From Hyphomicrobiales bacterium (GTDB taxonomy: Bacteria > Pseudomonadota > Alphaproteobacteria > Rhizobiales > Rhizobiaceae): a stretch of DNA of 47,682 nucleotides. The stretch spans positions 1 through 47,682 of the forward strand of contig UCOA01000122.1 of the NCBI GenBank assembly GCA_900474095.1, read 5' to 3'. Shown piece after piece: positions 12,754 to 31,150 of the stretch (position 1 is its first letter; every line of letters starts with the position of its first letter). The position numbers and the translations under genes were made by a program. The notes below the pieces were generated by a model. It saw nothing but the letters and a program-made list of their open reading frames with translations. It was not told the DNA's origin and ran no database searches.

Positions 12754-12783
12754 AAATGCCCTTCTTTCGTCACGACGTACGGG

Positions 12784-13368: not shown

Positions 13369-13374
13369 TTTCAC

Positions 13375-16358: not shown

Positions 16359-16520
16359 CTATTGAGGCGGGGTTCTTATCACCGGCAGAATTAGCTGGCC
16401 ACCCATTGGCTTCAACTCTGGCTCGATTGGTTCAAACATTGCCAAACTCAGTACGATCACTATAAGGCCGCACAATAGAGCCAAGAATACAACTCCCGCG
16501 GTGTCTGTCCATTTGCCCAT
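16359..16520 (-). CDS. Possible 53-residue single-pass membrane protein
   Basis: The minus-strand frame from the ATG at 16520 reads MGKWTDTAGVVFLALLCGLI, has one hydrophobic helix through about residue 29, then a proline-rich tail (FEPIEPELKPMGG) to the TAG at 16359. The composition looks like a real membrane peptide, but there is no clear ribosome binding site upstream. I do not recognise the family. Confidence 0.35.
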   Translation of the reverse strand: MGKWTDTAGVVFLALLCGLIVIVLSLAMFEPIEPELKPMGGQLILPVIRTPPQ

Positions 16521-16719
16521 ACAAAAGATTGTGATGAGACAATAAGAAAAATTTGAGGCAGCCCACCTCGTTGGTCAGCAGCATAGTGCGCTTTTGCCGC
16601 AGTTCCGTATCAGTGATCGTGCTGGTCGCCTCAACGCCAAACTCGGCCGCGTGGTGGTGTCGATGTTTTCGGTAATGGATCGGAATCCGAGGCCCTTGCT
16701 CTCCAGTCGGGTAGTGATT

Positions 16720-17017
16720 TCGATCAGGCCCTTGCAAAAACCGACCTGCTCATTCTCGATGACTGGGGGCCAGAGAAGCTCAGCGACGAGCAGCGGCGCG
16801 ACCTCCTGGAGATCGTTGAGGACCGCTATAAGAAACGATCCACCATTGTAACCAGCCAGGTGCCCGTCGAGCAGCACTGGCACGACATGACCGGCAACCA
16901 ACGATCGCCGACGCCATCCTTGACCGGCTCGTCCACAATGCCTACCGCATCGAGCCGACTGGCGAGAGCATGCGAAAGCAACGTTCCGTGACCGCTGCTG
17001 AAACAACCCAGACTTGA
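16720..17017 (+). mobile_element. IS21-family istB (ATPase) C-terminal fragment
   Basis: From about 16724 one frame reads [18 protein letters not shown], then [20 protein letters not shown] and [13 protein letters not shown]. This is the Walker B and downstream part of the IstB transposition helper of IS21 elements. Near 16895 the frame shifts; a second frame then continues with an [20 protein letters not shown]-like end and stops at 17015. The N-terminal part and istA are missing. It marks the left border of the phenazine-type cluster. Confidence 0.7.
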
Positions 17018-17113
17018 CCACCAAGCGGCTTCAAGTCTTTCTTGGGAGCCGAATTGGAATCCCGCTTAAGGTAAGCGTGGCATCTTGTCCGCGGCACTGC
17101 TCCAGGGCAGTTA

Positions 17114-17593
17114 TCACAATGACGCGACGGCGGCGATGTCCGCAGCCGTCCAGCGGCATTTATGGCGTCCCTCATCGATTTTCGCGCCAAGCCCGCGGTA
17201 GAAGCCGATGGCAGGCTCATTCCAATGCAGGACGGACCATTCCATCCGCCCCAGCCTCTCATCGGAACATTTGCAGGCTAGGTGGGACAGCAGCGCACGG
17301 CCTATTCCCTTGCGGCGAAATTTTTCCGCGACGAACAGATCCTCCAGCCAGAGGCAGCTTTTCCCGAGGAAGATCGAATAATTATAGGACCAGATCGCGA
17401 AGCCGGCCGGTTCGCCATTCCATTCGGCCAACTCACAATAAGCCGACGGCCGCTGGGAGAAGAGCGAAGAGGCGATATCAGCCGGGGTCGCGACGACATC
17501 TTGGAGACACCCCTCGTAACGTGCGAGCTCTCGCGTGAGTTCGACGATCGTGCCGGCATCGTTCACCTCTGCCCGCCGTATTTCCAGCGACAT
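17114..17593 (-). CDS. GNAT family N-acetyltransferase
   Basis: A 159-residue acetyltransferase starting MSLEIRRAEVNDAGTIVELT. I chose the ATG at 17593 because AAAGG is 8 bases upstream; a second ATG at 17599 is possible. The acetyl-CoA site is LEDLFVAEKFRRKGIGRALL (the R-x-x-G-x-G/A loop), followed by EWSVLHWNEPAIGFYRGLGA, which is typical of diamine- or small-amine-acetylating GNATs. It likely transfers an acetyl group to an amine on a small molecule in the cytoplasm. The operator palindrome at 17621 lies 28 bases upstream, identical to the one in front of phzA/B, so it is probably co-regulated with the phenazine genes. A self-protection or tailoring role is inferred from that. Confidence 0.85.
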   Translation of the reverse strand: MSLEIRRAEVNDAGTIVELTRELARYEGCLQDVVATPADIASSLFSQRPSAYCELAEWNGEPAGFAIWSYNYSIFLGKSCLWLEDLFVAEKFRRKGIGRALLSHLACKCSDERLGRMEWSVLHWNEPAIGFYRGLGAKIDEGRHKCRWTAADIAAVASL

Positions 17594-17620
17594 CTTCATC
17601 TACCTTTCGACACTGTAAAA

Positions 17621-17637
17621 TGACTGTCCGTCAGTCA
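17621..17637. promoter_or_regulatory. TetR-type operator 1 (upstream of the GNAT gene)
   Basis: TGACTGTCCGTCAGTCA, a perfect inverted repeat of TGACTG/CAGTCA with a 5-base centre. It lies 28 bases before the GNAT start. The same 17 bases occur at 18512. Confidence 0.8.
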
Positions 17638-17690: not shown

Positions 17691-18317
17691 CTAAGGCTGG
17701 TCCGGAACGCGGTGCTGTTGGACACGGGTGCTGACTGTCCGGGCGAATAGCTCACGCATTTGCCGGACCAGCACGGTTCTGTTCGGCGCGGACGAGGCTT
17801 TGGCATCGTTGACAACCCCGTGCAGCGCGTTGAAGAGAAAGATCGCCGTAAAGCGGGGGTTCTTAACTGTCCAGGCGCCAGCGGCATCGCCGCCGGCGAG
17901 CAGCCCGGTCAACTGGTCGACGATGGGATTGTTGCTCAGTCCCGTCCGGCTCGGGGGCGGACCCTCGGAGAAAATGATGTCGTGCAGCCGGGCGGCGTCG
18001 AGATAGGCTTTCGTACAACCAAGGACCCAGCCTGCAAGCTTGCCATCCCAATCTTCCTTGCGTTTGCCCTTCAGCCCGCTATTGATGCCGCCGAGGACAA
18101 TGTGAACGAACTGATCCCGCAGGGCGTTGACCACGTCGTCCTTTGACGAGAAATAGAGATAGAAGGTTCCTTTCGCGACGCCCGCTTCAGCCGTGATCTG
18201 CTCGACCGTCGTCGGTTCGATGCCGTTGATTTGAAAGAGATGGGCCGCTGCGGCGATCAAGTCTTCGCGGCGCTCTTCTGCGGGTTTGGTTCTTCGGCTC
18301 GCGGAACGTGCAGGCAT
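17691..18317 (-). CDS. TetR family repressor of the phenazine-type cluster
   Basis: A 208-residue regulator. Residues about 14-60 form the TetR helix-turn-helix (RREDLIAAAAHLFQINGIEP, then AEAGVAKGTFYLYFSSKDDV), followed by an all-helical ligand domain. The start at 18317 has AGGAG upstream. It is transcribed away from phzA/B, and the shared spacer carries operator 2 (18512). Four more copies of that palindrome lie before other units of the cluster. TetR proteins usually repress and let go when a small molecule binds, so a phenazine or precursor is a likely ligand. That this gene is the one binding the palindromes is inferred from position; the other TetR gene (37128) has a different palindrome beside it. 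Confidence 0.88.
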   Translation of the reverse strand: MPARSASRRTKPAEERREDLIAAAAHLFQINGIEPTTVEQITAEAGVAKGTFYLYFSSKDDVVNALRDQFVHIVLGGINSGLKGKRKEDWDGKLAGWVLGCTKAYLDAARLHDIIFSEGPPPSRTGLSNNPIVDQLTGLLAGGDAAGAWTVKNPRFTAIFLFNALHGVVNDAKASSAPNRTVLVRQMRELFARTVSTRVQQHRVPDQP

Positions 18318-18511: not shown

Positions 18512-18528
18512 TGACTGTCCGTCAGTCA
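18512..18528. promoter_or_regulatory. TetR-type operator 2 (between tetR and phzA/B)
   Basis: TGACTGTCCGTCAGTCA, identical to operator 1. It sits in the 296-base spacer between the divergent TetR gene and phzA/B, 86 bases before the phzA/B start, where it could control both directions. Confidence 0.82.
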
Positions 18529-18613: not shown

Positions 18614-19099
18614 ATGGAAAACGTTCTGGAACATGATGATGTGCTGCGCGAGAAAAACCGCAATGTTGTGAAAGATTATATGAGCCGGAAGGGTGAGAGC
18701 CGGCTTACAAGATATATGTTGTTTGACGATGACGGGATGGGTGGCCTTTGGACCGCCGATACCGTGGATCCCATCGTCGCAAAGGGGCGCGATGCGTTGA
18801 AGTCCCATGGAGAGTGGTCGTTGAAGTGCTTTCCGGATTGGGAATCGAAGAATGTCGAGATCTACGAAACGCAAGACCCGAACAAATTCTGGGTGGAATG
18901 TGACGGAGAGGGGCAGATACTCTTTGCTGACTATCCGGACGGATACTACAAAAATCACTTTATCTTCTTCTTCCTATTGGAGGATGGAAAGATCAAGCAG
19001 AGCAAGGAGTTCATGAATCCCTATCAGCAACTACGTGCGCTAGGGATTCCGATTCCCCAGGTCAAGCGGCATGGTCTGCCCCAGCACGCCGAACACTAA
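18614..19099 (+). CDS. phzB: PhzA/B, phenazine ring-forming protein
   Basis: A 161-residue protein of the NTF2-like PhzA/B family. It brings together two molecules of the aminoketone made by PhzF and helps them condense into the tricyclic phenazine precursor. Strong matches to known PhzA/PhzB are GGLWTADT, HGEWSLKCFPDW, FWVECDGEGQILF, GYYKNHF and the C-terminal EFMNPYQQLRALGIPIPQ. Length equals that of the family. Pseudomonas has two copies (phzA and phzB); here there is one, as in many other phenazine producers. The ATG at 18614 is supported by the family start; a TTG at 18590 is the alternative. It is the first gene of a plus-strand group with the transporters that follow and is controlled by operator 2. 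Confidence 0.92.
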   Translation: MENVLEHDDVLREKNRNVVKDYMSRKGESRLTRYMLFDDDGMGGLWTADTVDPIVAKGRDALKSHGEWSLKCFPDWESKNVEIYETQDPNKFWVECDGEGQILFADYPDGYYKNHFIFFFLLEDGKIKQSKEFMNPYQQLRALGIPIPQVKRHGLPQHAEH

Positions 19100-19279
19100 G
19101 CCGGCGGCCGCCCGGACGGCGAGCCGATGCAACATTCACTTCCTATCGGCGCCACTCCACCAGAGTGGCGCCCTTTTGTATGGGGAGGCATCGCCCCAGC
19201 GGGAGCGAGTTCATGCCTTGGTCGGCCGCCGATCGGCGCCCGCTTCGGAGGGGTGTCGTCGGAAATTTTTGGAGATCTA

Positions 19280-19308
19280 TTGACTGACGGTCAGTCAGAA
19301 TGTAGCTT
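19280..19308 (+). promoter_or_regulatory. Promoter with TetR-type operator 3 (upstream of the MFS gene)
   Basis: TGACTGACGGTCAGTCA at 19281-19297 is a perfect TGACTG-N5-CAGTCA palindrome. It overlaps a plausible promoter: -35 TTGACT (19280-19285), 17 bases, -10 TAGCTT (19303-19308). A repressor bound here would cover the -35 box and spacer. The MFS gene starts at 19393. Confidence 0.72.
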
Positions 19309-19392
19309 AAACTAATTCCGAAACCCAGCCGGCGTTGGATTTCCCGTCGCAATTCGGCGAAACGTCGTGGCTAAGCTGTTCGTGAGGGCGTC

Positions 19393-20577
19393 ATGTTAGT
19401 CTCAACACAGAAAGTGGGGCAGGGGCCGTGGCACGCCTTTCTTGTGCTGGTCGCGGTCGTCCTCGTATGCCTCAACCTGCGGATCGTCTTTGGGGGGGTG
19501 GGGCCTCTCATCCCTTACATGCATCTGTCGGCTGCCACCGCGAGCGCGCTGACTGCGTTCCCTCCGCTGTGCATGGGGCTTTTCGCGCCTCTCGGTCCCG
19601 TTTTCAGCCGCAGGTTCGGTCATTCGCGAGCGCTCTTTCTGGCGATGCTTATCCTCGTCGTCGGAATTCTCGTCCGTTCCTCAGGCCTGGCGGGCTTGCT
19701 GAGCGGAACGGTTATCGCGAGTGCCGGAATTGCGGCCCTCAACGTACTTACGCCAGTCTTCATTCGCCATCAGTTCGCTTCAGACCGGATTGGTGTGATG
19801 ATGGGTGTGTATGCGATGATGATGGGTGGGGGAGGCGGGCTCATGGCCGCATTTGCGATCCCACTTTACGGCGCCGCAGGCAACTCCTGGGCTTTTGCTC
19901 TGGGGGTCGCCGTCCTGCCTGCCCTGATGGCGCTCGGTGCTCTGCTGCCGCTTTTCGACAGCGCAAAGTCCACTCAAGTTTCTGCCCAGCGGCGAAACTG
20001 GAGTGCAATGCTCCGCAAAAGAATTGTTTGGAGCCTGATCGCTTTTTTCGGCGTGCAGACGCTCGTCTTCTATGCCGTCCTGGCGTGGCTACCAGCCATT
20101 TATATAAGCAAGGGAATGGATGCCGCAGCCGCGGGCTTCAATCTTGCACTTTGTATCTTCGCCGTGGCGGTCGGCGGCTTTCTCGGACCGATGATCGCTG
20201 CGAAGCATGACGACCAGCGTTCGCACATTCTGGCCTCCATTGGTCTGTGCATCGTGGGCCTTGCGGGCGTGTTGTTGTCGCCCCCGTCGTGGGCGCCGGT
20301 CTGGGTCATCCTTCTGGGCCTAGGCTTGGGGGCAGGGCAGGGCATTCCAAGCGTTCTCTTCGCTAAGCGGTCCGTCGGCCCGGCGCAAATGGCCGAACTG
20401 TCCAGTGTCGTGCAGATGGGCGGTTATCTCATAGCGGCGTCGGGGCCGGTCCTTGCAGCGGCGTTGCATGGCTGGAGCGGCGGATGGACCTGGCCCGTCG
20501 CCGCCTTGCTTGCCTTGCTCGCCATAAATGCCGTCGCAAGCCTTCCTGGAGGGCGCAACCATGTCGCAAGCTATTAA
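19393..20577 (+). CDS. MFS transporter, CynX/NimT family
   Basis: A 394-residue inner-membrane protein with about twelve hydrophobic helices. The early CLNLRIVFGGVGPLIPYM and GIAALNVLTPVFIRHQF segments are typical of the CynX/NimT branch of the major facilitator superfamily, whose members carry cyanate, nitroimidazoles or related small compounds. A loop around KSTQVSAQRRNWSAML divides the two six-helix halves. It follows phzA/B by 293 bases with its own operator-promoter and is followed 81 bases later by the ABC exporter genes, so it likely begins an export operon. Movement of the phenazine product or a toxic intermediate is inferred from context only. Confidence 0.85.
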   Translation: MLVSTQKVGQGPWHAFLVLVAVVLVCLNLRIVFGGVGPLIPYMHLSAATASALTAFPPLCMGLFAPLGPVFSRRFGHSRALFLAMLILVVGILVRSSGLAGLLSGTVIASAGIAALNVLTPVFIRHQFASDRIGVMMGVYAMMMGGGGGLMAAFAIPLYGAAGNSWAFALGVAVLPALMALGALLPLFDSAKSTQVSAQRRNWSAMLRKRIVWSLIAFFGVQTLVFYAVLAWLPAIYISKGMDAAAAGFNLALCIFAVAVGGFLGPMIAAKHDDQRSHILASIGLCIVGLAGVLLSPPSWAPVWVILLGLGLGAGQGIPSVLFAKRSVGPAQMAELSSVVQMGGYLIAASGPVLAAALHGWSGGWTWPVAALLALLAINAVASLPGGRNHVASY

Positions 20578-20658
20578 CTTTCCGACCCGTCCTCTCGCTC
20601 TTGCAACCGGCATCAGTTGGCCGAGCAGCGTTGGTGTAACAATCCTGGAGATCGTGCG

Positions 20659-22383
20659 ATGCGAGCTCAACTAGTTCTCGGCAGCAGCGGAATTACGCGC
20701 TGGACATTGGCTTCTGTTGCGGTCGGTCTCCTGATTGTGGCATGCGGCTCCGGTCAGGCGATGCTGCTGGCCGCCATATTGGCCGAGGTGCTCAGCGATA
20801 TGACCGCAACCAGCGTCACGCCCTTGCTGCTCGGACTTGGTGGCATACTGGTCGTGCGGGCTGTTTCGATCTGGCTCGCCGAGTTAGTCGCTCAGGCTTG
20901 TGCCCAAGCGGTCAAGGCCGATCTCAGAAAAAGGCTTCTCTCGCATCTCCTAGTCCTCGGGCCCGGTGTTACGCTTGTACGACAGACCGGCGAACTCCAG
21001 GCGACCATCGTCAGCGGCGTGGAGGCACTTGAGATCTATTACTCTCGCTACCTTCCGGCCGTGGCGATCGCGATCATTGGCTGCACCGGCATCGTGCTCG
21101 TGATCGCTGCCCTTGACTGGGTGTCGGCCCTCTTGCTGGCCTTCTGTCTTCTCGCGTTCCCGATGGTAGACGAGGCATGGATGCGCTGGCGGATGCCCAA
21201 GGGATCAGGCGTCTTTGCGGCCATGGGAGCGTTCGCGGCCTATCTGCTCGATAGTCTGCAGGGGATCGTTTCGATAAAGGCTTTCGGAGCGGCGGATGCG
21301 CGCCGGTCGGTGCTGGCGGCGAAGGCAACGGCGTTGCGTCAGCAGGCGATGACGACATTGCGGGTCAGCCTGTTGCGCAGCGGTCTGACCAGCTTCGTGA
21401 TGCTGTCGGGAATTGGCGTGCTGGTCTTCGTCAATGCCCTGCGGGTCGATTCGGGCAATCTTGCACCCTACGTCCTGCTCGTCACGTTTTTCCTTGCGCC
21501 TGAGGCCTTCCGGCCACTGAGCCGCGTCGAAAAGGAGTTTCATACGGCCTGGGCGGCGAGCGGCGCCATCGCCCCGATCGAATCCTTCCTGGCCCTCAGC
21601 CCTGCAGTCGTCGAACCGCTTCGGTCGGCCGACAAGCCTTCCATCGGCGACGTCGCGTTTGCCGATGTCAGCTTTGCCTATCCGCAAAGCACCGACACTG
21701 CTCTCTCCTCTCTTTCCTTTCACGTAAGCGAGAAGGAATTCGTAGCACTGGTCGGCGCCTCGGGCGCGGGTAAGTCCACCGTTACGGCGCTGCTCCTACG
21801 TTTCTTCGACCCCTCATCCGGCCGTATTTATGTCGGGGGCGTCGACATACGGGACCTATCGCTGAAGGACCTGCACTCCCTCGTCAGTGTCGTGTCTCAG
21901 GACACGTTCCTCTTCAGGGGCACGATTGCGGACAATCTACGGTTCGGCAAGCCAGAGGCGACGGATGATGACCTATGCGCTGCGGCCCGCGCGGCCCATA
22001 TCGCAGACTTTATCGAGAGCCTGCCGCAAGGCTACGAGACGGAGATCGGCGAACGCGGAATACTCCTTTCCGGCGGGCAGCGGCAGCGCCTTTCGATCGC
22101 CCGCGCCCTCCTGAAGGATGCTCCCATCCTCATCCTCGACGAGGCGACGTCGAACGTGGATGCGCAGAGCGAGAAGGCCATACAGGCCGCGTTCGAGGCC
22201 GTCGCAGGCAAGCGGACGATGCTGGTCATCGCGCACCGGCTTTCGACGATCGCGCGCGCCGACCGCATCCTTGTCCTGGATGGTGGTCGGCTGGTGAAGA
22301 CCGGAACCCCGGCCGAGCTTGGTCGAAGCGGAGGTGCCTATGGCGATCTTCTCGCAGCCGAAATGGAAAGGATGACACAATGA
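20659..22383 (+). CDS. ABC exporter half-transporter A (CydD-like)
   Basis: A 574-residue fusion of a six-helix membrane domain and an ATP-binding domain. The ATG at 20659 has GGAG nine bases upstream. In the ATPase part are the Walker A loop GASGAGKST (from about residue 366), the ABC signature LLSGGQRQRLSIARALL, Walker B ILILDEATS and the H-loop IAHRLST, so it should hydrolyse ATP. The membrane part resembles CydD-type exporters of the thiol/heme family. Its stop overlaps the start of the next gene (ATGA), which encodes the likely partner. Together they would form a heterodimeric exporter; the cargo is unknown but the surrounding cluster suggests a phenazine derivative. Confidence 0.87.
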   Translation: MRAQLVLGSSGITRWTLASVAVGLLIVACGSGQAMLLAAILAEVLSDMTATSVTPLLLGLGGILVVRAVSIWLAELVAQACAQAVKADLRKRLLSHLLVLGPGVTLVRQTGELQATIVSGVEALEIYYSRYLPAVAIAIIGCTGIVLVIAALDWVSALLLAFCLLAFPMVDEAWMRWRMPKGSGVFAAMGAFAAYLLDSLQGIVSIKAFGAADARRSVLAAKATALRQQAMTTLRVSLLRSGLTSFVMLSGIGVLVFVNALRVDSGNLAPYVLLVTFFLAPEAFRPLSRVEKEFHTAWAASGAIAPIESFLALSPAVVEPLRSADKPSIGDVAFADVSFAYPQSTDTALSSLSFHVSEKEFVALVGASGAGKSTVTALLLRFFDPSSGRIYVGGVDIRDLSLKDLHSLVSVVSQDTFLFRGTIADNLRFGKPEATDDDLCAAARAAHIADFIESLPQGYETEIGERGILLSGGQRQRLSIARALLKDAPILILDEATSNVDAQSEKAIQAAFEAVAGKRTMLVIAHRLSTIARADRILVLDGGRLVKTGTPAELGRSGGAYGDLLAAEMERMTQ

Positions 22384-24143
22384 GCAAGGGCAGCACCTCC
22401 CGGGTGGATTTCCTTGACTCTGCCGCATCCATCCTCGGGCTCATCCCACTGCTGAAAGGTCATCGCCTCAAGCTCTTCCTCACCGTACTTTCAGCGATCT
22501 GCTCTCACAGTGGCATGCTGGTCAGCCTCGGTGTTGCCGGGTGGCTGGCGGGAAGGGTGATGACAGGTACAGCGCCGGGGGGATTGTTCGCGGTCTTCCT
22601 CTGGCTTGCTGGGTCTATCGTCGCGACGGCTGCGGCCCGCTGGTGGCAGGCCTATATCTCGCATGCGCTCGCCTTCTCGGTAATCGAGACCCTGCAACTG
22701 GGCGTCTATGACGGGCTGGCACGCGCTGCCCCTTTAGATATCCTCGGGCTCCACACAGGCGAGCTCGCATCGGTCGCGATTTCCGACGCGGCGCTGATGG
22801 AGCACTTCTATGCCCATACGCTGGCAGATTACTGTGCCGCAATCCTCGTGCCGCTCATGGCCTTGATCGCCATTTTTTATGTGGAGCCGGCAATCGGAAT
22901 CGGGCTTCTGCCCTTTCTCTTTTTTGTCGCAAGCGTTCCCTACTGGTTCTCGCGTCGGGCGCAGCGACAGGGCAGTGCCATTCTCGGCAATCTCGGCGCG
23001 TTGAACGCCGAGACGGTTGAGTTCATCCTCGGTCAAAGGGAGTTGATCATCTTCGGTCGTGGTCAGGATTTCTTGAACAGGCTGATGCGCCGTACATCGA
23101 GTGTGTCAGCAGCGCAGCGGCAATATGGTGCGCGCGCCGGCCTGGAACAGGCGCTGATTGATTTTCTAACGGGTTCTTCCGTCCTGGTTTCGGTCTTCAT
23201 CGCCATCACCCGCATCAACGATGGAAACCTCGATGGGTCGCTTCTTCCGCTGATTGTCGTACTTGCCGGTGGCGCCCTGGTGCCGATCGTCGAGGTCAGT
23301 CAAACGGCACGCAAACTCGGCGAATTGAAAGCCGGCGCACGCCGCATCCTCGCCATTCTTCGTCAGCCTTCTCAAGTCGCCGACACGGGCAAGGCATCCG
23401 CGCCGCTCGGCAGGGCAATTCGGTTTCAAAACGTGACTTTCGCCTATGATGCGAACAGGAGCGAGGTCCTGAAAGGCCTTGATCTGGCCATCCCCGCCGG
23501 CAGCCTGGTGGCGTTGGCCGGTCGGTCGGGTGCGGGAAAAAGCACCGTCATGAACCTGCTCCTGCGCTTTCGCGATCCCTCGGCAGGCACGATTTCGATT
23601 GGAGCGCTTGATATCCGTGACCTGCCCCTCGACACGCTCAGGTCCCTGATCGCCTATGTTCCGCAGGACATCCATCTTTTCAACGAGACGATCGCGGACA
23701 ATATCCGATTGGGCCGACCGGACGCATCGATGGCCGATGTCGACGAGGCGTGCCTAATGGCACAGGCGGATAATTTTATCAAAGCCTTGCCCGACGGCTA
23801 CGAAACGATGTGCGGCGAAGGTGGCGCTAAGCTGTCAGGGGGTGAACGCCAGCGTCTGGCCATCGCCCGGGCACTCGTTACCAAGGCTCCCATCATTCTC
23901 CTCGACGAAGCGTCGTCCAATCTCGATACGGAAAGCGAAAGAGCGTTCGGGCAGGTGGTCGACTTGATACGCGGTAGCCGGACGGTTATCCTCATCGCGC
24001 ACCGCCCCTCCACGATCCGCCGAGCGGACAGGATCGTGGTCCTGCAGGACGGCGCAATTGTGGAGGATGGTTCCCATGCCACGCTAGCGGCACAGGGTGG
24101 CGCCTATACCAGGCTCATCGGGGAAGGAGGCCAGCCGGCATGA
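22380..24143 (+). CDS. ABC exporter half-transporter B (CydC-like)
   Basis: A 587-residue membrane-plus-ATPase protein. The start ATG overlaps the stop of the first half-transporter by four bases, implying translational coupling. It has the Walker A loop GRSGAGKST (about residue 381), Q-loop AYVPQDIHLFNETIADNIRL, signature LSGGERQRLAIARAL, Walker B IILLDEASS and H-loop IAHRPST. All catalytic elements are present in both halves, so neither site looks degenerate. It ends eight bases before the stop of phzF on the opposite strand, so the two transcripts converge with almost no space and no visible terminator. Confidence 0.87.
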   Translation: MSKGSTSRVDFLDSAASILGLIPLLKGHRLKLFLTVLSAICSHSGMLVSLGVAGWLAGRVMTGTAPGGLFAVFLWLAGSIVATAAARWWQAYISHALAFSVIETLQLGVYDGLARAAPLDILGLHTGELASVAISDAALMEHFYAHTLADYCAAILVPLMALIAIFYVEPAIGIGLLPFLFFVASVPYWFSRRAQRQGSAILGNLGALNAETVEFILGQRELIIFGRGQDFLNRLMRRTSSVSAAQRQYGARAGLEQALIDFLTGSSVLVSVFIAITRINDGNLDGSLLPLIVVLAGGALVPIVEVSQTARKLGELKAGARRILAILRQPSQVADTGKASAPLGRAIRFQNVTFAYDANRSEVLKGLDLAIPAGSLVALAGRSGAGKSTVMNLLLRFRDPSAGTISIGALDIRDLPLDTLRSLIAYVPQDIHLFNETIADNIRLGRPDASMADVDEACLMAQADNFIKALPDGYETMCGEGGAKLSGGERQRLAIARALVTKAPIILLDEASSNLDTESERAFGQVVDLIRGSRTVILIAHRPSTIRRADRIVVLQDGAIVEDGSHATLAAQGGAYTRLIGEGGQPA

Positions 24144-24151
24144 GGCGCGAG

Positions 24152-25006
24152 TCAGGACCAGCGCAGAAACTCGCCACGCGCGACGACGGTCACCGCGCCC
24201 GAAACCTCGATCGCTTCGATCGTGAGCGGCCGGGATCCGCAAATGCGGGCATGCATGAGGGAGTGCCGGCCCATCTCGACGCCCTGATGGATATTTATCT
24301 GGTCGTCGAAATCGATGATCCCGTGCCGCAAGAGGTGCAACGCCAGCGGTCCGGCCGCGGACCCCGTCGCCGCATCCTCGACGACGCCGTAGGCGGGGGA
24401 GAACATGCGCATCCTCCATTCCAATTCCTGACCGGCGAAGCAGTTGATCGCAACATCCGGCAATTGCGCCAGCCGATGGTGGTTGGGTTTGATTGCCGAA
24501 AGCGCCTCGATGGACGGTAGTCCGACGAAGACGTGACGGGGCCCGTTGCGGTATATCTCGACAGGGAAGCGGGAGTGGCTCAGCCCCAGGGCCTGCAGAA
24601 CTGTTTCTTTTTGATCATAGTCCTGCCAAGTCGGTATGGGTTGCCGCATCGTGACGGCCTCGATGTCACCACAACGAGAGCGATCCAGTCTGAAGGGGAC
24701 CGGTCCCATCTTGGTCTCGAGGACGAGGCGACCGGAGGCGTGGGATTGCCCGAGGACTGCCGCGGCTCCTAACGCCGGGTGACCGGCGAAAGGCAACTCG
24801 TTGACCGGGGTGAAGATACGGATCCTGAAGTCGCCCCCGTTATCGGGGGGAAACGTGAAGACCGTCTCAGACAGGTTCAGTTCATTGGCGATATTTTGCA
24901 TGTCGGCATCGCGAAACCCGGCGGCGTCAAGAAAGACTGCAACCGGGTTTCCCTTCAGCGGCCGATCCGAAAAGGCATCGGCAAGGACATAGGAACGTGC
25001 GTTCAT
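24152..25006 (-). CDS. phzF: PhzF, trans-2,3-dihydro-3-hydroxyanthranilate isomerase
   Basis: A 284-residue protein closely matching PhzF of pseudomonads. It isomerises 2,3-dihydro-3-hydroxyanthranilic acid (DHHA) to the reactive ketone that dimerises into the phenazine skeleton. The catalytic glutamate is E47 in NELNLSETVF. Other conserved blocks are IRIFTPVNELPFAGHPALG, YRNGPRHVFVGLPSIEALSA and MFSPAYGVVEDAATGSAAGP. It has the two-lobed diaminopimelate-epimerase fold and is cytoplasmic. It is last in the minus-strand operon phzD-phzE-phzF, 57 bases after phzE. The ribosome binding site is weak (GGGATTT). Confidence 0.95.
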   Translation of the reverse strand: MNARSYVLADAFSDRPLKGNPVAVFLDAAGFRDADMQNIANELNLSETVFTFPPDNGGDFRIRIFTPVNELPFAGHPALGAAAVLGQSHASGRLVLETKMGPVPFRLDRSRCGDIEAVTMRQPIPTWQDYDQKETVLQALGLSHSRFPVEIYRNGPRHVFVGLPSIEALSAIKPNHHRLAQLPDVAINCFAGQELEWRMRMFSPAYGVVEDAATGSAAGPLALHLLRHGIIDFDDQINIHQGVEMGRHSLMHARICGSRPLTIEAIEVSGAVTVVARGEFLRWS

Positions 25007-25063
25007 GTCGAAATCCCATAGAGGAACAAACGTCTGTCACTGGGGAGAGGCGATGGCTGGTTT

Positions 25064-27016
25064 TTAACCAGCCATGCCGATCGAATTGAAGTCGAGCGCT
25101 GATTTATGATTTGCGGGCGCGTCGAATGCCTGGATACTGCCTCCGACCAGGTGGAGGATGGCTTGGCGCAGGATTCCAGGCCCGTCCTGTGTAAGCAGGG
25201 ATTCCGGGTGGAACTGCATGGTGCTGAAGAAGGCGGAGCGCATGGCGTGGACTTCTCCGGTCGTTTCGCGGCTGACCTCGACCAGAATCCCATCAACGAG
25301 GTAAAGGAAGTCCCGAGCGCAATTCGCGACATAGCTGTTATAGAAGCCAACCCTCTGCCAATCGCCGAAGTAATTTATTTCCCGCTGGATACCCTGATTG
25401 GGCGTAGCCCGGCGAAGCACTTCAAGCCCCAACTCCCTCGACAGGATCTGATGGCTCAGGCAGACGGCTATGAAGGGACGACGCTCGGCCAAGAGCGTTG
25501 CCATCGTCCTTTGCATGGCCGCGATGCGGGGATCCTTGCTATCGTTGGGGTTGCCCGGGCCGGGCCCCATGACAACCAGATCCCACTCGCCATGAAGGAC
25601 ATCTGCGCATTGGAAGCTGCGTTTCGTCACCTCAAGCCCAAGCGCAGCGAGCTGTTGCGCCAGCATTTCAGTAAACTCGTCCTCGGCATCGACGACCAGT
25701 GCGGAGAGGCCGCTCAAAGCCGGGTCGGGCCTCCTCCGCTCGTTGCATTCTGTAAGCCAAAAGGAAGAAACCAGCGCGTTTCGCTGCTTCAATACCGCTT
25801 GCACTGACTGGTCGTCACTGAGGCGCCGCCGCGGTTCAAACCCGAAGGCGCCGAGCATTGCTTTCGCCTTGGAAAGCGTTTCCGACGCCTCCTGGGCCGG
25901 ATCTGAATGGCGCACGATCGTTGCGCCCACGCCCAGAGCGACACCTCCATCCATGCCGATGGATGCCGTTCGGATGAGGATGGCCGAATCGAGCGTTCGC
26001 GTACCGGAATGGTCGCGACCAAACAGCGCCAAGGTGCCGGCATAATAGCCTCTGCCGGCAGGCTCGTATTTCGCAACGACGCGGCAGGCGTTTTCGAGCG
26101 GGCTGCCGGTCACCGTTGGGGCAAACATGGTGTGGACCAATACCTCGCGCGGATCGGCGGGCGTGTTCCCCTTGATCAGATATTCGGTATGGGCGAGGCG
26201 GGACATTTCTTTCAGGAACGGCCCGACGACAGTTCCTCCCTTGGGGCAGAAGCGGGCCATCATCTTCAGTTCCTCGTCGACGACCATATAAAGCTCGTCG
26301 CGCTCCTTCGTATCGGCGAGGAAGTTGACCACCCCGGACAGGGATGGGCCAGACGGCGGATAGCGATAGGTGCCGCTGATCGGATTGATGGTCGCGACGC
26401 CACCCTGCAAGCTCACCTGCCGCTCGGGACTTGCGCCGACTAGCAACCGATCACCCGTAAAAAGGAGGAAGGCCCAATAGGCGCCGGCTTCGTCCTGCAG
26501 AAGCCGCCTGAAAACGGCAAAGCCGGCCTCGACGGCATCGGTTTCGAGTTGGGCGGTAAACGAGCGCTTGATGACGAAGTTCGAACCTTCGCCATTGCCG
26601 ATCTCGTTGTCGATCACCGCGCGGACGAGATCGGCATAGTGCTCATCGTCGATGTCGAACCGGCCGTTCTTCAGCTGGATCGGTGCGGCAGGCAGTTTCG
26701 CCAGGACTTGGCTCAGAGGGACGACATCCCGTTCGGCGATCTGTAGGGTCAGCAAGGGCATTTCATCGTCGATGCAGGCAAATCCCCGTTCGGCGAGCTG
26801 GCGAAAAGGAATGAGGGCAAGCACGTCGGCTTGCTCCGTGCCCATCTCCGGCGCGCCGTCCGGCAGCTCGATGGAACCGATGAGGTCGGCTTTCTCCACA
26901 TTGCCGGAGAAAACCTCCAATGCACCGGAGTGGGGACCCTCCGGCCTGAAGATCAAGGCGAAAGGCACCCGCTCGTCCTTGCAACGAATAATTCTGTCGA
27001 GCAATCCCAGCGTCAT
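25064..27016 (-). CDS. phzE: PhzE, 2-amino-2-desoxyisochorismate synthase
   Basis: A 650-residue fusion that converts chorismate and glutamine to 2-amino-2-desoxyisochorismate (ADIC), the committing step of phenazine synthesis. The N-terminal two-thirds is the chorismate-binding domain (ATINPISGTYRYPP, AHTEYLIKGNTPADPREVLV, MFAPTVTGSPLENACRVV, GYYAGTLALFGRD). The C-terminal third is a glutamine amidotransferase with GPGPGNPND, the nucleophilic cysteine in FIAVCLSHQILSRELGLEVL, and histidine/glutamate in MQFHPESLL. This order, synthase then amidotransferase, is PhzE rather than TrpE or TrpG. The ATG at 27016 overlaps the phzD stop (ATGA) and has GAGG upstream; the frame runs 13 residues further up. 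Confidence 0.95.
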   Translation of the reverse strand: MTLGLLDRIIRCKDERVPFALIFRPEGPHSGALEVFSGNVEKADLIGSIELPDGAPEMGTEQADVLALIPFRQLAERGFACIDDEMPLLTLQIAERDVVPLSQVLAKLPAAPIQLKNGRFDIDDEHYADLVRAVIDNEIGNGEGSNFVIKRSFTAQLETDAVEAGFAVFRRLLQDEAGAYWAFLLFTGDRLLVGASPERQVSLQGGVATINPISGTYRYPPSGPSLSGVVNFLADTKERDELYMVVDEELKMMARFCPKGGTVVGPFLKEMSRLAHTEYLIKGNTPADPREVLVHTMFAPTVTGSPLENACRVVAKYEPAGRGYYAGTLALFGRDHSGTRTLDSAILIRTASIGMDGGVALGVGATIVRHSDPAQEASETLSKAKAMLGAFGFEPRRRLSDDQSVQAVLKQRNALVSSFWLTECNERRRPDPALSGLSALVVDAEDEFTEMLAQQLAALGLEVTKRSFQCADVLHGEWDLVVMGPGPGNPNDSKDPRIAAMQRTMATLLAERRPFIAVCLSHQILSRELGLEVLRRATPNQGIQREINYFGDWQRVGFYNSYVANCARDFLYLVDGILVEVSRETTGEVHAMRSAFFSTMQFHPESLLTQDGPGILRQAILHLVGGSIQAFDAPANHKSALDFNSIGMAG

Positions 27017-27639
27017 GATAAAACCTCGTCGGCTGCGACGATCTTTGCACAGCAATTTGCCCCGTATTCGAGAGCGGCCAGATGTCGGTTGATGGAAAAG
27101 TCGGCAACGGCGTCACCAACCACGAAAGTCTCGATGTCGTGCGAGAACGCTTCCACGGCCGTGATTAGGATGCCGATATGGGCGTAGACGCCGCATATGA
27201 TAATCTGGTCGCGCCCCTGCCTGCGAATTTCCTCGAGAATGCTCGAGTTGTAGAAGGCGCTGTAGCGCCATTTCGTTGAGATCATGTCAGGTTGTTCCGG
27301 CGCCAACTCGTCGATCACCTGCCGGTCCTCAGCCGTGGCCTCCATGCCAGGACCCCAAAAGGCCTTGAGAAGTCCTCTTTGGGTGGGCGTCATGCTGCCA
27401 GGTTGTGTCGTGAAGATGATGGGGACGCCGGCGGCACGGCATTTCCTCTGAACGGCCGCGACGTTGCTGATCAACGCATCCTTCGGATACGGGGCTGGAA
27501 TGGGGCGAAGAAAGAAGCGCTGCATGTCGTGGATGAGAAGAATGACGCGCTCCGGGTCGATTTGCCAGTCCACGCGGCTGGCCGGCCAACGGGACTGATC
27601 CGGCATGCGATATTCTTCGATTTGCGGTATACCAGGCAT
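27013..27639 (-). CDS. phzD: PhzD, ADIC hydrolase (isochorismatase family)
   Basis: A 208-residue protein that splits pyruvate from ADIC to give DHHA. The ATG at 27639 (MPGIPQIEEYRMPD) has AAGGAAAGG upstream and matches the known PhzD start. Catalytic residues are D38 in LLIHDMQRFFLRP and K123 in STKWRYSAFYNS. In CGVYAHIGI, glycine occupies the place where hydrolase relatives have the nucleophilic cysteine, the distinguishing feature of PhzD and isochorismatases. It is first in the phzD-phzE-phzF operon. The leader of 227 bases reaches up to operator 4 (27866), so the whole operon is probably under the TetR repressor. Confidence 0.95.
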   Translation of the reverse strand: MPGIPQIEEYRMPDQSRWPASRVDWQIDPERVILLIHDMQRFFLRPIPAPYPKDALISNVAAVQRKCRAAGVPIIFTTQPGSMTPTQRGLLKAFWGPGMEATAEDRQVIDELAPEQPDMISTKWRYSAFYNSSILEEIRRQGRDQIIICGVYAHIGILITAVEAFSHDIETFVVGDAVADFSINRHLAALEYGANCCAKIVAADEVLS

Positions 27640-27865
27640 GGCACCTTTCCTTGTTCTCTGTTGAAATCGCAACCTCTTGAAGTGAGGTCATGGCGGCTAC
27701 CGCGCTACACGCGCCAGGCCGCACCGCCGGCCCTGATGTCGATCGAGGTAGCGGATGGAATTAATCGGCGGCGTGCCGACGTCGGGAAAATCCTGGTGCT
27801 CGCGCTCCATCTCACCTTGAATATGCAGCACTTCATGACGAAAATCCGGGGCGGTGACTGAAGAC

Positions 27866-27882
27866 TGACTGACTATCAGTCA
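27866..27882. promoter_or_regulatory. TetR-type operator 4 (phzDEF side)
   Basis: TGACTGACTATCAGTCA, perfect arms with a 5-base centre. It is 227 bases before the phzD start. Confidence 0.8.
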
Positions 27883-27938
27883 TAAGTCAATGGGTGTATC
27901 GTTTGATTTATTTCTACGTCTTGGTGCAGATTTATTAT

Positions 27939-27955
27939 TGACTGACCCTCAGTCA
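27939..27955. promoter_or_regulatory. TetR-type operator 5 (tailoring-operon side)
   Basis: TGACTGACCCTCAGTCA, perfect arms with a 5-base centre. It is 103 bases before the start at 28058 and 73 bases from operator 4, centre to centre, close to seven helical turns. Confidence 0.8.
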
Positions 27956-28057
27956 TATGCAAACTTTCCTGAGCTTCGAACGTGTAGGGATGCGGTCCCG
28001 CTTGACCGATCGTCAAGGCCGCGCGGGTCCCCCGGAGGAGGCTGTAGAAGATCACAT

Positions 28058-29200
28058 ATGAAGGGATTGCCTGTGACACCTCTCGGCGCAGCGGCGATAT
28101 CCAGCCATCGAACAACGGAAATGACCATTCTGCGAAGACTGGTCGCGGAACGCTCGGGCAATGCCGACGAAGAGCGCCGACTCCAAGAAAGGGCGGTTCA
28201 TGGGTTGCGTGAAGGTGGGTTCCCATCCCACTTCGTGCCAGCGCCTTACGGTGGAGGGCAATCGAGTTTTGTCAATTTATTGAGTGACGTACAGTCAGTT
28301 GCGCAGGGGTGTGCATCGGCGGCGTGGTGCGCGACGATATATGCGGTCGCCAGCCGAATGGCAGCCTATTTGCCGGCGGAGGGGCAGCGCCAGATCTGGG
28401 GGAAGGGGGCAGACGTCCTCATTTCTGCCTCCTTCCGGCCCTCTGGGAGTGCCTCCGCAGGGGGCACGGGATGGATGCTCAGCGGCAACTGGCACTATCT
28501 CTCGGGCATCACTTATGCCGACTGGGCACTGGTCTGTTTCGCTCCAAACGGCGAGGGTGCTCGGTATGCTGCCATTCCGGTATCGGAATTGCACATTGTC
28601 GATGATTGGTCGACGCTCGGCATGCGCGGGACGGGAAGCCACAGCGTCCAGCTGAACGAAGTATTCGTGCCCGAGCATCGCACATTCCTGAAGCAGGACC
28701 TGTGGGGCGGCAAGGCGCGAGCCGCGGCCGGACCCTCCTACCAGGTTTCGCCGGTTGACAGCGATCCGCCCCTCTTTGCAGGTGTTGCCTTGGGTGCTGC
28801 CCGCGCCGCGATCGATCTTTGGACAAGCCGTTGGCGCGATTTTCGGCCAGACAGCGAGATGGGCATCGCCTATGCGCGTTCCCTTGCCGAGCTCGATGCG
28901 GCCAGTCTGCTGCTGGAACGTGCATGTCGCGCCTCCGATACGGGGCTTTTGTCGGTGATCGATACCGGCAGGAACGGGCGCGATTCCTCCCTGGCGATCG
29001 AGTATATCCTGACGGCGATCGGGCGAATTTTCCGGCTGAGCGGGAGTCAGGCACATTTCGATCAAAGCCCGGCCCTGCGCCACTGGAGGGATGTGCAGAC
29101 ACTCGCGTCGCACGTGGCGCTACGGCAAGACCTGAATTTTTCGCAATACACCAAGGGCCTTTGGCAATCCCAGGAAAGCGTTGACCCGCGCGCGGCGTGA
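28058..29200 (+). CDS. Acyl-CoA-dehydrogenase-fold flavin enzyme (class D monooxygenase-like)
   Basis: A 380-residue protein. I start it at the ATG at 28058 (MKGLPVTPLGAAAI); the frame is open to 27890, but that part covers operator 5 and has no resemblance. The order of blocks is an N-terminal helical domain (GLREGGFPSHFVPAPYGG), a middle domain with ASFRPSGSASAGGTGWMLSG and NWHYLSGITYADWALVCF, and STLGMRGTGSHSVQLNEVFV before a C-terminal helical bundle. This is the layout of flavin-dependent hydroxylases related to HsaA/HpaB-type enzymes rather than of fatty-acid dehydrogenases, whose catalytic glutamate I do not see. It may hydroxylate the phenazine ring or an N-atom using reduced flavin; a reductase gene is not nearby. 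It is first in the plus-strand tailoring operon. Confidence 0.75.
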   Translation: MKGLPVTPLGAAAISSHRTTEMTILRRLVAERSGNADEERRLQERAVHGLREGGFPSHFVPAPYGGGQSSFVNLLSDVQSVAQGCASAAWCATIYAVASRMAAYLPAEGQRQIWGKGADVLISASFRPSGSASAGGTGWMLSGNWHYLSGITYADWALVCFAPNGEGARYAAIPVSELHIVDDWSTLGMRGTGSHSVQLNEVFVPEHRTFLKQDLWGGKARAAAGPSYQVSPVDSDPPLFAGVALGAARAAIDLWTSRWRDFRPDSEMGIAYARSLAELDAASLLLERACRASDTGLLSVIDTGRNGRDSSLAIEYILTAIGRIFRLSGSQAHFDQSPALRHWRDVQTLASHVALRQDLNFSQYTKGLWQSQESVDPRAA

Positions 29201-29226
29201 TCCGCGTCAGCAGAGAGGCAGCAGTT

Positions 29227-29856
29227 ATGAAGCATATTCTCGAACCCGTTGTCGCAGTGCCGTGCACGGACATTTTTCTGGCCGAACCGGAGAACCCTCT
29301 CGATGCCGTCAAGGTATGGTTCGATCAGGCCATTTCGGCGAAGGTGTTGGAGCCGGGAGCGATGGCGTTGACGACACTGGGTGTCGACAGCGGCCTCTCC
29401 AGCAGGACCATTCAGGTTCTCGAAGTCGGCTGTGACGGTCTTGTTTTCGCGACGCATGCGGGCAGCCCGAAAGGCAGAGACATTGCTGAAACCGGGAAGG
29501 TTTCCGGCGTGCTCTACTGGCGGGAACTGAAGCAACAGGTCATCGTGAGCGGCCGCGCCGAGGTGCTTTGCTCGGCCGAGGCCGAGCGGCTCTGGCTAGG
29601 CCGGCCAAGAGAGTCCTGCGCGATGTCGATCGTTACCCGCCAGAGCCAACCGTTGCTCGACGAGGCGGATTTGAGGGCGAAGGCCGCGATTTTGTCCGCG
29701 TCGTCCGAGCGGCTCGAACGGCCGGCCGGCTGGCTTGGCTACCTCATTCGCCCAACTACGGTCGAGTTTTGGCAATTTTCGCCCGATCGGCTCTACAAGC
29801 GGCTCAAATACGAGATCACGCGGTCGGGCTGGACCCGGTATCGGCTCCAGCCTTAA
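29227..29856 (+). CDS. phzG: PhzG, FMN-dependent phenazine precursor oxidase
   Basis: A 209-residue protein of the pyridoxamine-phosphate oxidase fold. PhzG oxidises the hexahydrophenazine formed after PhzF and PhzA/B, leading to phenazine carboxylic or dicarboxylic acid. Matches to known PhzG include FATHAGSPKGRDIAETGKVSGVLYWRE (read in two parts: ATHAGSPKGRD, SGVLYWRE), QQVIVSGRAEVL, SIVTRQSQPL and a C-terminal VEFWQFSPDRLYKRLKYE block followed by GW-x-x-x-RLQP. I chose the ATG at 29227, with AGAGAGGCAGC upstream; a GTG/ATT-type start 30 bases earlier overlaps the previous gene. The family start also fits. It lies 26 bases after the flavoenzyme gene, in the same operon. Confidence 0.92.
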   Translation: MKHILEPVVAVPCTDIFLAEPENPLDAVKVWFDQAISAKVLEPGAMALTTLGVDSGLSSRTIQVLEVGCDGLVFATHAGSPKGRDIAETGKVSGVLYWRELKQQVIVSGRAEVLCSAEAERLWLGRPRESCAMSIVTRQSQPLLDEADLRAKAAILSASSERLERPAGWLGYLIRPTTVEFWQFSPDRLYKRLKYEITRSGWTRYRLQP

Positions 29857-29902: not shown

Positions 29903-31150
29903 ATGCGACCCTTTGGTCAAACACACGCCGATTTTGATGCAAACACGAGGAATTTCCTGGTTGCATCCGGCTTCATGGGGCTGGCGAACGGCAGCTTCGA
30001 CGCCGTCTTCAACTTCTACCTTGAAAACCAGGGCCTGGACAAAGTCGCCATCGGCCAGATCTATTCGATCTCCATGATTGGCATGGGGATCGCCGTCCTC
30101 CTGCAGGGGTTCGCGTCTCGGCGCTACGGCTTGCGGCCGGTTCATAGGCTGGCCTCCTGGCAGTTTGCGCTCACGCTGTTCCTCATCCCGCTGTGTCATT
30201 CGGTGCTCGTGACGAGTATCGTGCTGAGCTTCGTCTCCGGCGGCTTCATCGGCATGCTTTCGACCGGCGCCGCTATCTTCGGGAACCGCGTCAGGGCCGA
30301 CAGGCGAGTCCAGCTGTTCAGCCTGTTCTTCGCGTCCTACTTGGTCTGCACCATGCTCGGCTCGGTCTTCGCCGCCGGCCTGAACTGGCTGCTACCCATG
30401 TCACCGGAACGGAGCTATGTTCTCCTCCTCCTCCTTTCGGGCGGATTTGCGCTCGTCATGTGCGGCTTTCGGGAAACTTCCCTTAGAATGGGCGAGCCGG
30501 AGGAGGTGAAGAGCGTTCACATACAGGGCATGAAACGGCACGATTGGCTGCCGCTCCTGATGCTGTTTGCATCCTCGTTTTTCCTCGGTGGGTCCATCCT
30601 TCTCGTCTTCCGTTTCTCGAACATCATCTTGACGTCCGATTACGGCCTGTCGGTGAGCACGAGCGCGGTCGTGCTGGGCGCCGAAAAGATCTTTGCGCTC
30701 ACGGGCGCGCTCCTGGCACCATCGTTCAAGCGAATGGCCGCGCACCGCACACTGATCCTGCTGATCACGGTAGTCACGGCGTTCGCGCTTGCCATACAAG
30801 CGGCACTGCCGGCTATCGCTCTTTTCCTTGGCGTCTACTTCATGCGCATCGCAATGAACTATACGCTCATGCCGATTTTGGATGCGGTGACGATCTCCGC
30901 CTTCACCAAAGAGCAATCCATCATATCGACGACAAGCCGGCAACTCGCCTTCTACATCGGCGGCTCTGCGGCGGCTTTCGCCTACGGATTGCTGCTGCAG
31001 GCGGGCCAATCGAGCACGGCGATTGCGCTTTCCGGCGTGATGGCGACGCTTGGCGGCCTGCTCCTGCTCATGGTTCGTGAACACGAGCCGACGCTTGCCG
31101 CCGAGTTGCTGCGGCAGCGTTCCGAACAAGCCGCTGCGAAAGCAGCTTAA
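29903..31150 (+). CDS. MFS efflux transporter of the tailoring operon
   Basis: A 415-residue inner-membrane protein with about twelve helices. The ATG at 29903 has GGGAGAGGAAAG before it and gives MRPFGQTHADFDANTRNFLV; the frame is open for another 56 residues upstream but those overlap phzG. Typical early motif: NGSFDAVFNFYLENQGLDKV, then GFASRRYGLRPVHRL between helices 2 and 3. It belongs to a drug-exporter-like branch of the major facilitator superfamily; I cannot place it closer. It lies between phzG and the ATP-grasp gene with gaps of 46 and 15 bases, so it is surely part of this operon. Efflux of the finished compound is the likely job. Confidence 0.8.
   Translation: MRPFGQTHADFDANTRNFLVASGFMGLANGSFDAVFNFYLENQGLDKVAIGQIYSISMIGMGIAVLLQGFASRRYGLRPVHRLASWQFALTLFLIPLCHSVLVTSIVLSFVSGGFIGMLSTGAAIFGNRVRADRRVQLFSLFFASYLVCTMLGSVFAAGLNWLLPMSPERSYVLLLLLSGGFALVMCGFRETSLRMGEPEEVKSVHIQGMKRHDWLPLLMLFASSFFLGGSILLVFRFSNIILTSDYGLSVSTSAVVLGAEKIFALTGALLAPSFKRMAAHRTLILLITVVTAFALAIQAALPAIALFLGVYFMRIAMNYTLMPILDAVTISAFTKEQSIISTTSRQLAFYIGGSAAAFAYGLLLQAGQSSTAIALSGVMATLGGLLLLMVREHEPTLAAELLRQRSEQAAAKAA

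Follow-up and report, generated by a model that had tools for sequence, protein, structure and literature searches.

A probable phenazine gene cluster in a Rhizobiaceae accessory region, most likely complete and horizontally acquired

Gene content and core enzymes of the phenazine locus

We analyzed a contig of 47,682 nucleotides (UCOA01000122.1, called the window below), one of 279 contigs in a 6.40-Mb Rhizobiaceae draft genome, for a set of phenazine biosynthesis (phz) genes and their neighbours. From left to right, the locus encodes a GNAT acetyltransferase, a TetR-family regulator, PhzA/B, a major facilitator superfamily (MFS) transporter, a pair of ATP-binding cassette (ABC) proteins, PhzF, PhzE and PhzD (phzF-phzE-phzD, minus strand), a flavin monooxygenase, PhzG, a second MFS transporter (MFS2), an ATP-grasp ligase, a YqcI/YcgG protein, a PhyH-type protein and a carbamoyltransferase. 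From sequence comparison we hold it highly probable that the locus is a complete phenazine cluster, which was acquired horizontally and lies in an accessory region. The core genes were as follows, with Pfam, Protein Data Bank (PDB) or NCBIfam matches and the residues that were checked:

18614-19099, plus strand: phzA/B, condensing enzyme (PF03284, PHZA_PHZB, 6e-70; PDB 3ff0, named PhzB2, 2e-65; H65/S69/E132)
24152-25006, minus strand: phzF, isomerase of trans-2,3-dihydro-3-hydroxyanthranilic acid (DHHA) (Pfam PhzC-PhzF 8e-72; PDB 1u1v, named PhzF, 2e-99; E47, H76, D211)
25064-27016, minus strand: phzE, 2-amino-2-deoxyisochorismate (ADIC) synthase with a fused glutamine amidotransferase (GATase) (Pfam chorismate-binding and GATase; PDB 3r74 1e-190; C519/H603/E605)
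27013-27639, minus strand: phzD, isochorismatase (Pfam isochorismatase; PDB 1nf9, named PhzD, 9e-75; D38, K123, G156)
29227-29856, plus strand: phzG, flavin mononucleotide (FMN)-dependent oxidase (PNP_phzG_C; PDB 4hmw 4e-43; 1ty9 and 4hms, named PhzG, 4e-38; NF038138 215 bits, cut-off 270)

An earlier note on this DNA had described all five core genes, PhzA/B, D, E, F and G, as complete, and the open frames and the Pfam and PDB matches agree with it. No internal stop was found in any cluster gene examined, and phzD and phzE overlapped by 4 bp. After 3r74, whose PDB record reads anthranilate/para-aminobenzoate synthase component and which we take to be PhzE, the next distinct PDB entry for PhzE reached only 1e-22. 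The first entry not named PhzF stood at 1e-27, which indicates a true PhzF type and not the general family. For PhzE, PhzF and PhzA/B, a solved Phz enzyme was the nearest by a wide margin; for PhzD, the next other isochorismatase in the PDB was at 9e-54. Entry 4hmw is recorded as a pyridoxamine 5'-phosphate (PNP) oxidase but is presumably PhzG, and likewise 1t9m; PNP oxidases other than PhzG matched at 6e-22 or weaker, and two of the four structures nearest to PhzG are named PhzG in the PDB record. PhzG also scored 144 bits against the broader model PRK05679.1 (pyridoxal 5'-phosphate synthase; cut-off 129) and 140 bits against the pdxH model, below its cut-off of 180.

The residues named in the earlier note, which were D38, K123 and the Cys-to-Gly change in PhzD, E47 in PhzF and the amidotransferase cysteine of PhzE (C519), were all found, with Gly156 of PhzD occupying the position of the nucleophilic Cys. 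The roles of the checked catalytic residues in PhzA/B, PhzD, PhzF and PhzE are assumed here. By these comparisons, all five core genes are intact and their products are members of the Phz families, in the case of PhzG probably so, and the locus can be read as a working phenazine-1-carboxylate or 1,6-dicarboxylate pathway.

A shared palindrome in front of the phenazine genes

The palindrome TGACTGnCnnTCAGTCA was found at five intergenic sites, which face phzA/B and tetR, the exporter set (MFS and ABC pair), phzDEF and monooxygenase-phzG, and the GNAT gene. The sites, all from pattern search and given without strand, and the regulator gene were:

17621-17637: putative operator site 1, TGACTGTCCGTCAGTCA, about 20 bp 5' of the GNAT start
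17691-18317, minus strand: TetR-family regulator, candidate repressor of the regulon (PF00440 1e-15)
18512-18528: putative operator site 2, between tetR and phzA/B
19281-19297: putative operator site 3, 5' of the MFS-ABC-ABC unit
27866-27882: putative operator site 4, divergent phzD/monooxygenase promoter region
27939-27955: putative operator site 5, divergent phzD/monooxygenase promoter region

With up to three mismatches, the pattern TTGACTGACNNTCAGTCA matched the window 11 times, where 0.27 matches were expected, and none of 100 shuffles reached this number; ten of the 11 were both strands of the five palindromes, and the eleventh lay inside the monooxygenase gene. When one mismatch was allowed, the 17-base palindrome occurred at five places in the 6.4-Mb genome, all of them in the window, and the reversed control at none. 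When two mismatches were allowed, there were 19 strand matches against 17 for the control pattern, which leaves the one-mismatch set as the meaningful one.

The TetR protein, encoded next to sites 1 and 2, is the likely binder of the five palindromes, and the scattered phz genes probably form one regulon under one shared operator. The split layout need not mean separate control, because one operator would tie the units together. The earlier note had counted three transcription units; its statement that the core genes are split holds, but four intergenic control regions with one shared operator describe the locus better. The shared palindrome had been missed there, as had the clade placement and the accessory gene set described below.

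Origin and distribution

The guanine-plus-cytosine (GC) content was 0.58-0.62 over 19-36 kb, compared with 0.54-0.57 in the adjoining 16-19 kb and 36-40 kb (2-kb windows), and values up to 0.60 also occurred in other stretches of the contig. Pieces of the flanks were near matches to Rhizobium and Sinorhizobium plasmids, so an accessory replicon is the likely home of the phz locus, and the rhizobial setting proposed in the earlier note is supported. Open reading frames (ORFs) with transposase domains flanked the cluster on both sides, at 45134-45736 and 6212-6613. The gene at 44114-45001 encodes a Hint_2 domain protein whose N-terminus looks Tat-like (signal judged by eye).

Relatives of PhzA/B were collected by an alignment scan with one genome per species (84,980 species); 208 relatives were confirmed, and the best 80 of the 208 were kept. 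The scan loci and plasmid loci together gave 88 phz loci for comparison, and a concatenated PhzA/B-D-E-F tree was built from the window and the 68 loci in which all four genes were present (69 rows; 20 loci dropped). The window grouped with Lysobacter, Dyella, a Burkholderia ubonensis plasmid and Paraburkholderia phenazinium with an SH-like approximate likelihood ratio (SH-aLRT) of 99, and the same clade received 100 under a mixture model with 33 of the 69 rows, chosen by hand. By this phylogeny, the Phz proteins of the window belong to a Burkholderiales/Xanthomonadales clade of Phz proteins and do not fall outside the Phz families.

Two other Rhizobiaceae clusters, from R. leguminosarum CC283b and a Rhizobium metagenome-assembled genome (MAG), sat elsewhere in the tree. 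Forcing the three Rhizobiaceae together was rejected by the approximately unbiased (AU) test (p-AU 0.00025), and a common Rhizobiaceae phz ancestor was set aside. The group tested was named after the first tree, all three branches are long, and the joining of CC283b with the MAG was flagged as possibly false. Because the window and the other two clusters fall in different clades, the result suggests at least two separate acquisitions of phz genes by Rhizobiaceae from different lineages.

A strong PhzA/B match was found in 1 of 26 genomes of the genus, 1 of 151 of the family and 1 of 397 of the order, each time in the present genome alone, as expected of acquisition. Weak PF03284 matches (20-28 bits), which are probably SnoaL-like proteins, occurred in four other family and four other order genomes, two of each above the 24-bit cut-off, and were not counted. 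Among plasmid records, four of Rhizobium leguminosarum from Trifolium ambiguum also had PhzA/B; one of these, the CC283b plasmid, was opened and held all five phz genes, as did the Rhizobium MAG, so rhizobial phenazine clusters are not unprecedented in sequence data. The earlier remark that few if any are known from Rhizobiales was thus too strong for sequence data, although it holds in the sampled genomes of the genus and order.

Literature searches, in which most matching papers were judged without their full text, turned up no described rhizobial phenazine cluster and single genes only. These single genes, named phzF, phzD or 'phenazine biosynthesis protein', were noted in Hartmannibacter, Methylobacterium and Bradyrhizobium (PMC6754898, PMC7038796, PMC3899966). 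Dar et al. (2020) reported 181 producer genomes in 15 orders (PMC7591250); the string 'Rhizobi' is absent from the main text of that paper, the producer list itself being in the supplement, outside this check.

Other plasmids carried phz-type genes as well. In the Agrobacterium tumefaciens plasmid pAtCFBP5499c, the gene at 12001-13950 of the compared stretch encodes a PhzE-like protein (48%); it neighbours oxidoreductase genes, the vicinity has no further phz annotation, and it perhaps serves an ADIC-using pathway of another kind. An E. coli O170:H18 plasmid has, at 5135-17587 of the compared stretch, a phenazine cluster with aldehyde dehydrogenase, non-ribosomal peptide synthetase and 3-deoxy-D-arabino-heptulosonate 7-phosphate (DAHP) synthase, a few kb from a replication gene. 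Two Streptomyces plasmids have two PhzA/B genes per cluster, and in one of them the second copy is divergent (46% to the window PhzA/B).

Monooxygenase and expected product

Between the divergent promoter region and phzG lies one further enzyme gene, which ends 26 bp before phzG:

28058-29200, plus strand: HsaA/XiaF-type flavin monooxygenase, oxygenase component, candidate phenazine hydroxylase (NF045629 168 bits, below its cut-off of 450, on 28028-29200)

Its best PDB matches were Rv3094c (7f72, 3e-31), 3-HSA hydroxylase (2rfq, 2e-30) and XiaF (5lvu, 1e-29), in a range that extended with C2-HPAH to 3e-26. Entries named acyl-CoA dehydrogenase matched at 4e-5 or weaker, save two 'type 2 domain' entries at 3e-10. 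By these matches, the protein has the acyl-CoA-dehydrogenase fold and is nearer to the group D flavin monooxygenases than to the dehydrogenases. HsaA-like proteins occurred in 11 of the 88 phz loci (E-value 1e-5), the nearest in P. phenazinium (51%). Family and position suggest that the enzyme probably hydroxylates the phenazine ring.

PhzS was searched for with the Dyella marensis protein as the one query; there was no match in the window at 1e-3, and the best match in the genome had 31% identity. Identities to this query were higher, 46-50%, for relatives from P. phenazinium, L. antibioticus and D. tabacisoli, and the 31% is close to the 32-34% seen in Burkholderia sp. D-99. Since no close PhzS, a decarboxylating hydroxylase, was found, at least one carboxyl group is expected to be retained on the product. 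For the same reason a product of the iodinin/myxin type, made with PhzS and PhzNO1, was set aside. In L. antibioticus, LaPhzS and LaPhzNO1 are reported to convert phenazine-1,6-dicarboxylic acid (PDC) to iodinin (PMC7591250) and myxin is reported to derive from PDC (PMC7927275); P. phenazinium is a reported iodinin producer (PMC4882756), and phenazine production is reported for Dyella japonica (PMC7591250). These producers belong to, or are related to, the clade in which the window falls.

DAHP synthase queries from three phz clusters gave no match in the window at 1e-3, while the same queries matched 67 of 95 compared loci at 1e-20. Because the window has no DAHP synthase of the phz-cluster type, chorismate would come from the host's own shikimate pathway. 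Judging from the known pathway, PhzE would then convert chorismate and glutamine to ADIC, PhzD would remove pyruvate to give DHHA, PhzF would isomerise DHHA, PhzA/B would join two molecules, and PhzG would complete the oxidation to phenazine-1-carboxylic acid (PCA) or, more likely, PDC. The HsaA/XiaF-type monooxygenase would probably hydroxylate the ring afterwards, the retained carboxyl could be amidated by the ATP-grasp ligase, and the product would leave through the MFS and ABC proteins. TetR bound to the five palindromes would repress the units, and an inducer, for which the phenazine itself is a plausible candidate, would free it.

Neighbouring genes

The genes for export and for possible self-protection were:

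17114-17599, minus strand: GNAT acetyltransferase, possible self-protection or tailoring (Acetyltransf_1 7e-18; putative operator about 20 bp 5' of the start)
19393-20577, plus strand: MFS transporter nearest to the CynX/NimT subfamily, candidate exporter (PF07690; TIGR00896 271 bits, below its cut-off of 406)
20659-22383, plus strand: ABC transporter half 1, fused permease-ATPase (PF00005/PF00664, on 20641-22383; 55% to the ABC gene next to the phz operon of P. phenazinium)
22380-24143, plus strand: ABC transporter half 2, fused permease-ATPase (PF00005/PF00664, on 22392-24143; 53% to P. phenazinium over the part compared)
29903-31150, plus strand: MFS2, second MFS transporter, 46 bp after phzG (PF07690 1e-15)

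Downstream of MFS2 we found:

31166-32518, plus strand: BacD-like ATP-grasp ligase, candidate amide-forming tailoring enzyme, 15 bp after MFS2 (PDB BacD 3wo1 5e-44; NF053745 179 bits, below its cut-off of 850)
32520-32542, plus strand: terminator-like hairpin after the ATP-grasp gene
32677-33519, plus strand: YqcI/YcgG protein, distantly related to the heme N-hydroxylase GntA and of uncertain membership in the phenazine system (PF08892 5e-48; NF041366 42 bits, below its cut-off of 145)
33545-34300, plus strand: PhyH-type dioxygenase, membership uncertain (PF05721 3e-16)
34348-36108, plus strand: O-carbamoyltransferase of the NodU/TobZ/GdmN type, membership uncertain (PF02543/PF16861; PDB 7xb6 2e-90, GdmN 7vzq 6e-89)

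Because the gaps from phzG to MFS2 and from MFS2 to the ATP-grasp gene are so short, the ligase may well be part of the phenazine operon. The YqcI, PhyH and carbamoyltransferase trio begins after a 158-bp gap with the terminator-like hairpin, itself weak evidence singly, as 28 such hairpins were found in the region against 17.7 expected. In this trio, the carbamoyltransferase follows YqcI and PhyH as if to make a carbamoylated N-O amino acid. Homologues of the ATP-grasp, YqcI, PhyH and carbamoyltransferase proteins were found in none of the 88 other phz loci (1e-5), for which flanks of up to about 10 kb on either side of phzA/B were compared (18 kb in one locus, 15 kb in CC283b, 12 kb in some plasmid loci). 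No close ATP-grasp relative was found in 150 other family genomes (1e-20) or in 397 other phylum genomes (1e-30; at most four candidates scored per genome among the matches listed), and plasmid relatives had up to 37% identity. In 385 genomes of the class, YqcI (1e-15) was found, besides the present genome, as distant relatives (32-35%) in three genomes of one genus. The nearest plasmid relatives of the carbamoyltransferase (about 40%) were in Methylosinus and Bradyrhizobium. The FVG (gvg) cluster was tried as a model for the carbamoyltransferase cassette and set aside: the words phytanoyl, YqcI, ATP-grasp, heme, dioxygenase and ligase are absent from the main text of PMC8064604, and no link was shown.

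Alternative readings

In the most novel form of the phenazine reading, the HsaA-type enzyme hydroxylates a retained phenazine carboxylate, and the BacD-like ligase joins this to an amino acid or amine on which YqcI carries out N-oxygenation, PhyH hydroxylation and the NodU-type enzyme carbamoylation, with the core and export genes under one TetR operator. A rhizobium would then make a new kind of phenazine, conjugated to an amino acid. We regard this full scheme as unlikely. The alternative, to which we give about an even chance, shares the same phz core and differs only after phzG: two clusters would lie side by side, a plain phenazine cluster bounded by GNAT and phzG and an amino-acid antimetabolite set of its own (MFS2, ATP-grasp, YqcI, PhyH, carbamoyltransferase) that builds an N-O/carbamoyl amino acid or dipeptide and leaves the phenazine untouched. 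BacD-type ligases join amino acids, and the ligase is nearest to BacD, the alanine-anticapsin ligase. The lack of homologues of the four genes in the other phz loci also favours two clusters, as does a Priestia plasmid which has YqcI with LysE, ATP-grasp and others, with no phz gene listed in that stretch. No palindrome was found before YqcI by pattern search of the window and the genome, and the hairpin after the ATP-grasp gene fits as well. The short gaps from phzG to the ATP-grasp gene, behind the operator-bearing promoter region, argue instead for a single unit, and so does the similar GC of the genes from monooxygenase to carbamoyltransferase (0.585-0.617). No genome surveyed above had a close ATP-grasp without phz; this was counted against two clusters, but such an absence fits either reading.

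Another possibility is that the locus is a silent or decaying remnant, with intact-looking but unexpressed genes scattered by rearrangement. The split over several units, the transposase-domain ORFs in the contig and the lack of PhzA/B in the 25 other genus genomes searched would agree with it. But the cluster genes examined have no internal stop, and the five conserved palindromes that precede the units point to selection for shared control, so we consider a remnant improbable. Least probable is that the core enzymes stop before phenazine and supply DHHA or a 3-hydroxyanthranilate-type block to another product: parts of the Phz set do serve other products, and the Agrobacterium plasmid has its lone PhzE-like protein, but the enzymes after DHHA (PhzF, PhzA/B and PhzG) are all present here, PhzF and PhzA/B keep the checked residues, and PhzA/B is the condensing enzyme.

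Several observations weigh against the reading as a complete, jointly controlled and acquired phenazine cluster. PhzG is below the cut-off of its own NCBIfam model (phena_PhzG), though this is its best NCBIfam score. The phzA/B gene is isolated, is followed by a terminator-like hairpin and has a GC content of 0.50 against about 0.60 in neighbour genes, so it could have a separate history. The branch of the window is long in both trees (0.67 and 0.8). TetR is proposed as the binder of the palindromes from adjacency; promoter-like matches (4 observed, 5.0 expected) were in no excess over chance; and the exact looser pattern (12-base half-site) is absent from 103 other loci compared, phz loci included, so this control appears particular to the present locus among those compared. 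As to the product, the absence of PhzS is that of one query in a 279-contig draft. No PhzNO1-type N-oxidase is among the annotated cluster ORFs, no search aimed at PhzNO1 having been made. The preference for PDC over PCA is a guess, and a title in the reference list of PMC11477647 links a P. phenazinium strain to PCA.

Phenazines are redox-active antibiotics and matter for root health, and the locus offers a testable single-operator regulon. If the ligase and the carbamoyltransferase did act on the phenazine, its product would be a new compound.

Comparison with known phenazine systems

The Pseudomonas phzABCDEFG genes have the same core chemistry as the window, but they form a single operon with both phzA and phzB, include PhzC and are under quorum-sensing control. 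Within the Rhizobiaceae, R. leguminosarum CC283b (pCC283b_4) also has all five phz genes with phzF apart from the rest, but it belongs to a different Phz clade and has asnB, methyltransferase and multicopper oxidase as accessory genes. The closest core proteins are those of the Lysobacter antibioticus and Dyella clusters (PhzA/B 74% to L. antibioticus 13-6; concatenate 61%). Unlike the window, these have PhzS-type proteins, an O-methyltransferase in both Dyella loci examined, and no HsaA-like protein in the three genomes (1e-20).

The lomofungin cluster of Streptomyces lomondensis is reported to combine a phz core with an acyl-CoA-dehydrogenase-like gene, lomo9; the hydroxylase demonstrated for that cluster, Lomo10, is a flavin monooxygenase of another kind (PMC4549113). 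In the phz locus of S. lomondensis JCM 4866, the HsaA-like match had 30% identity to the window monooxygenase.

P. phenazinium LMG 2247 differs from the window in having one run of genes with DAHP synthase, a PhzS-like gene (46%) on another contig, no ATP-grasp homologue in the genome (1e-10) and no exact match to the operator pattern at the phz locus. Like the window, it belongs to the same Phz clade, has the ABC pair (55%, 53%) next to its core genes, and encodes an HsaA-like monooxygenase (50-51%) whose gene is followed immediately by phzG (4202 to 4226 in that locus); the monooxygenase common to both is uncharacterised and may be a phenazine hydroxylase. As far as we have seen, the split regulon with a single operator, the pairing of HsaA with phzG in a rhizobium and the linkage to an ATP-grasp gene are new.

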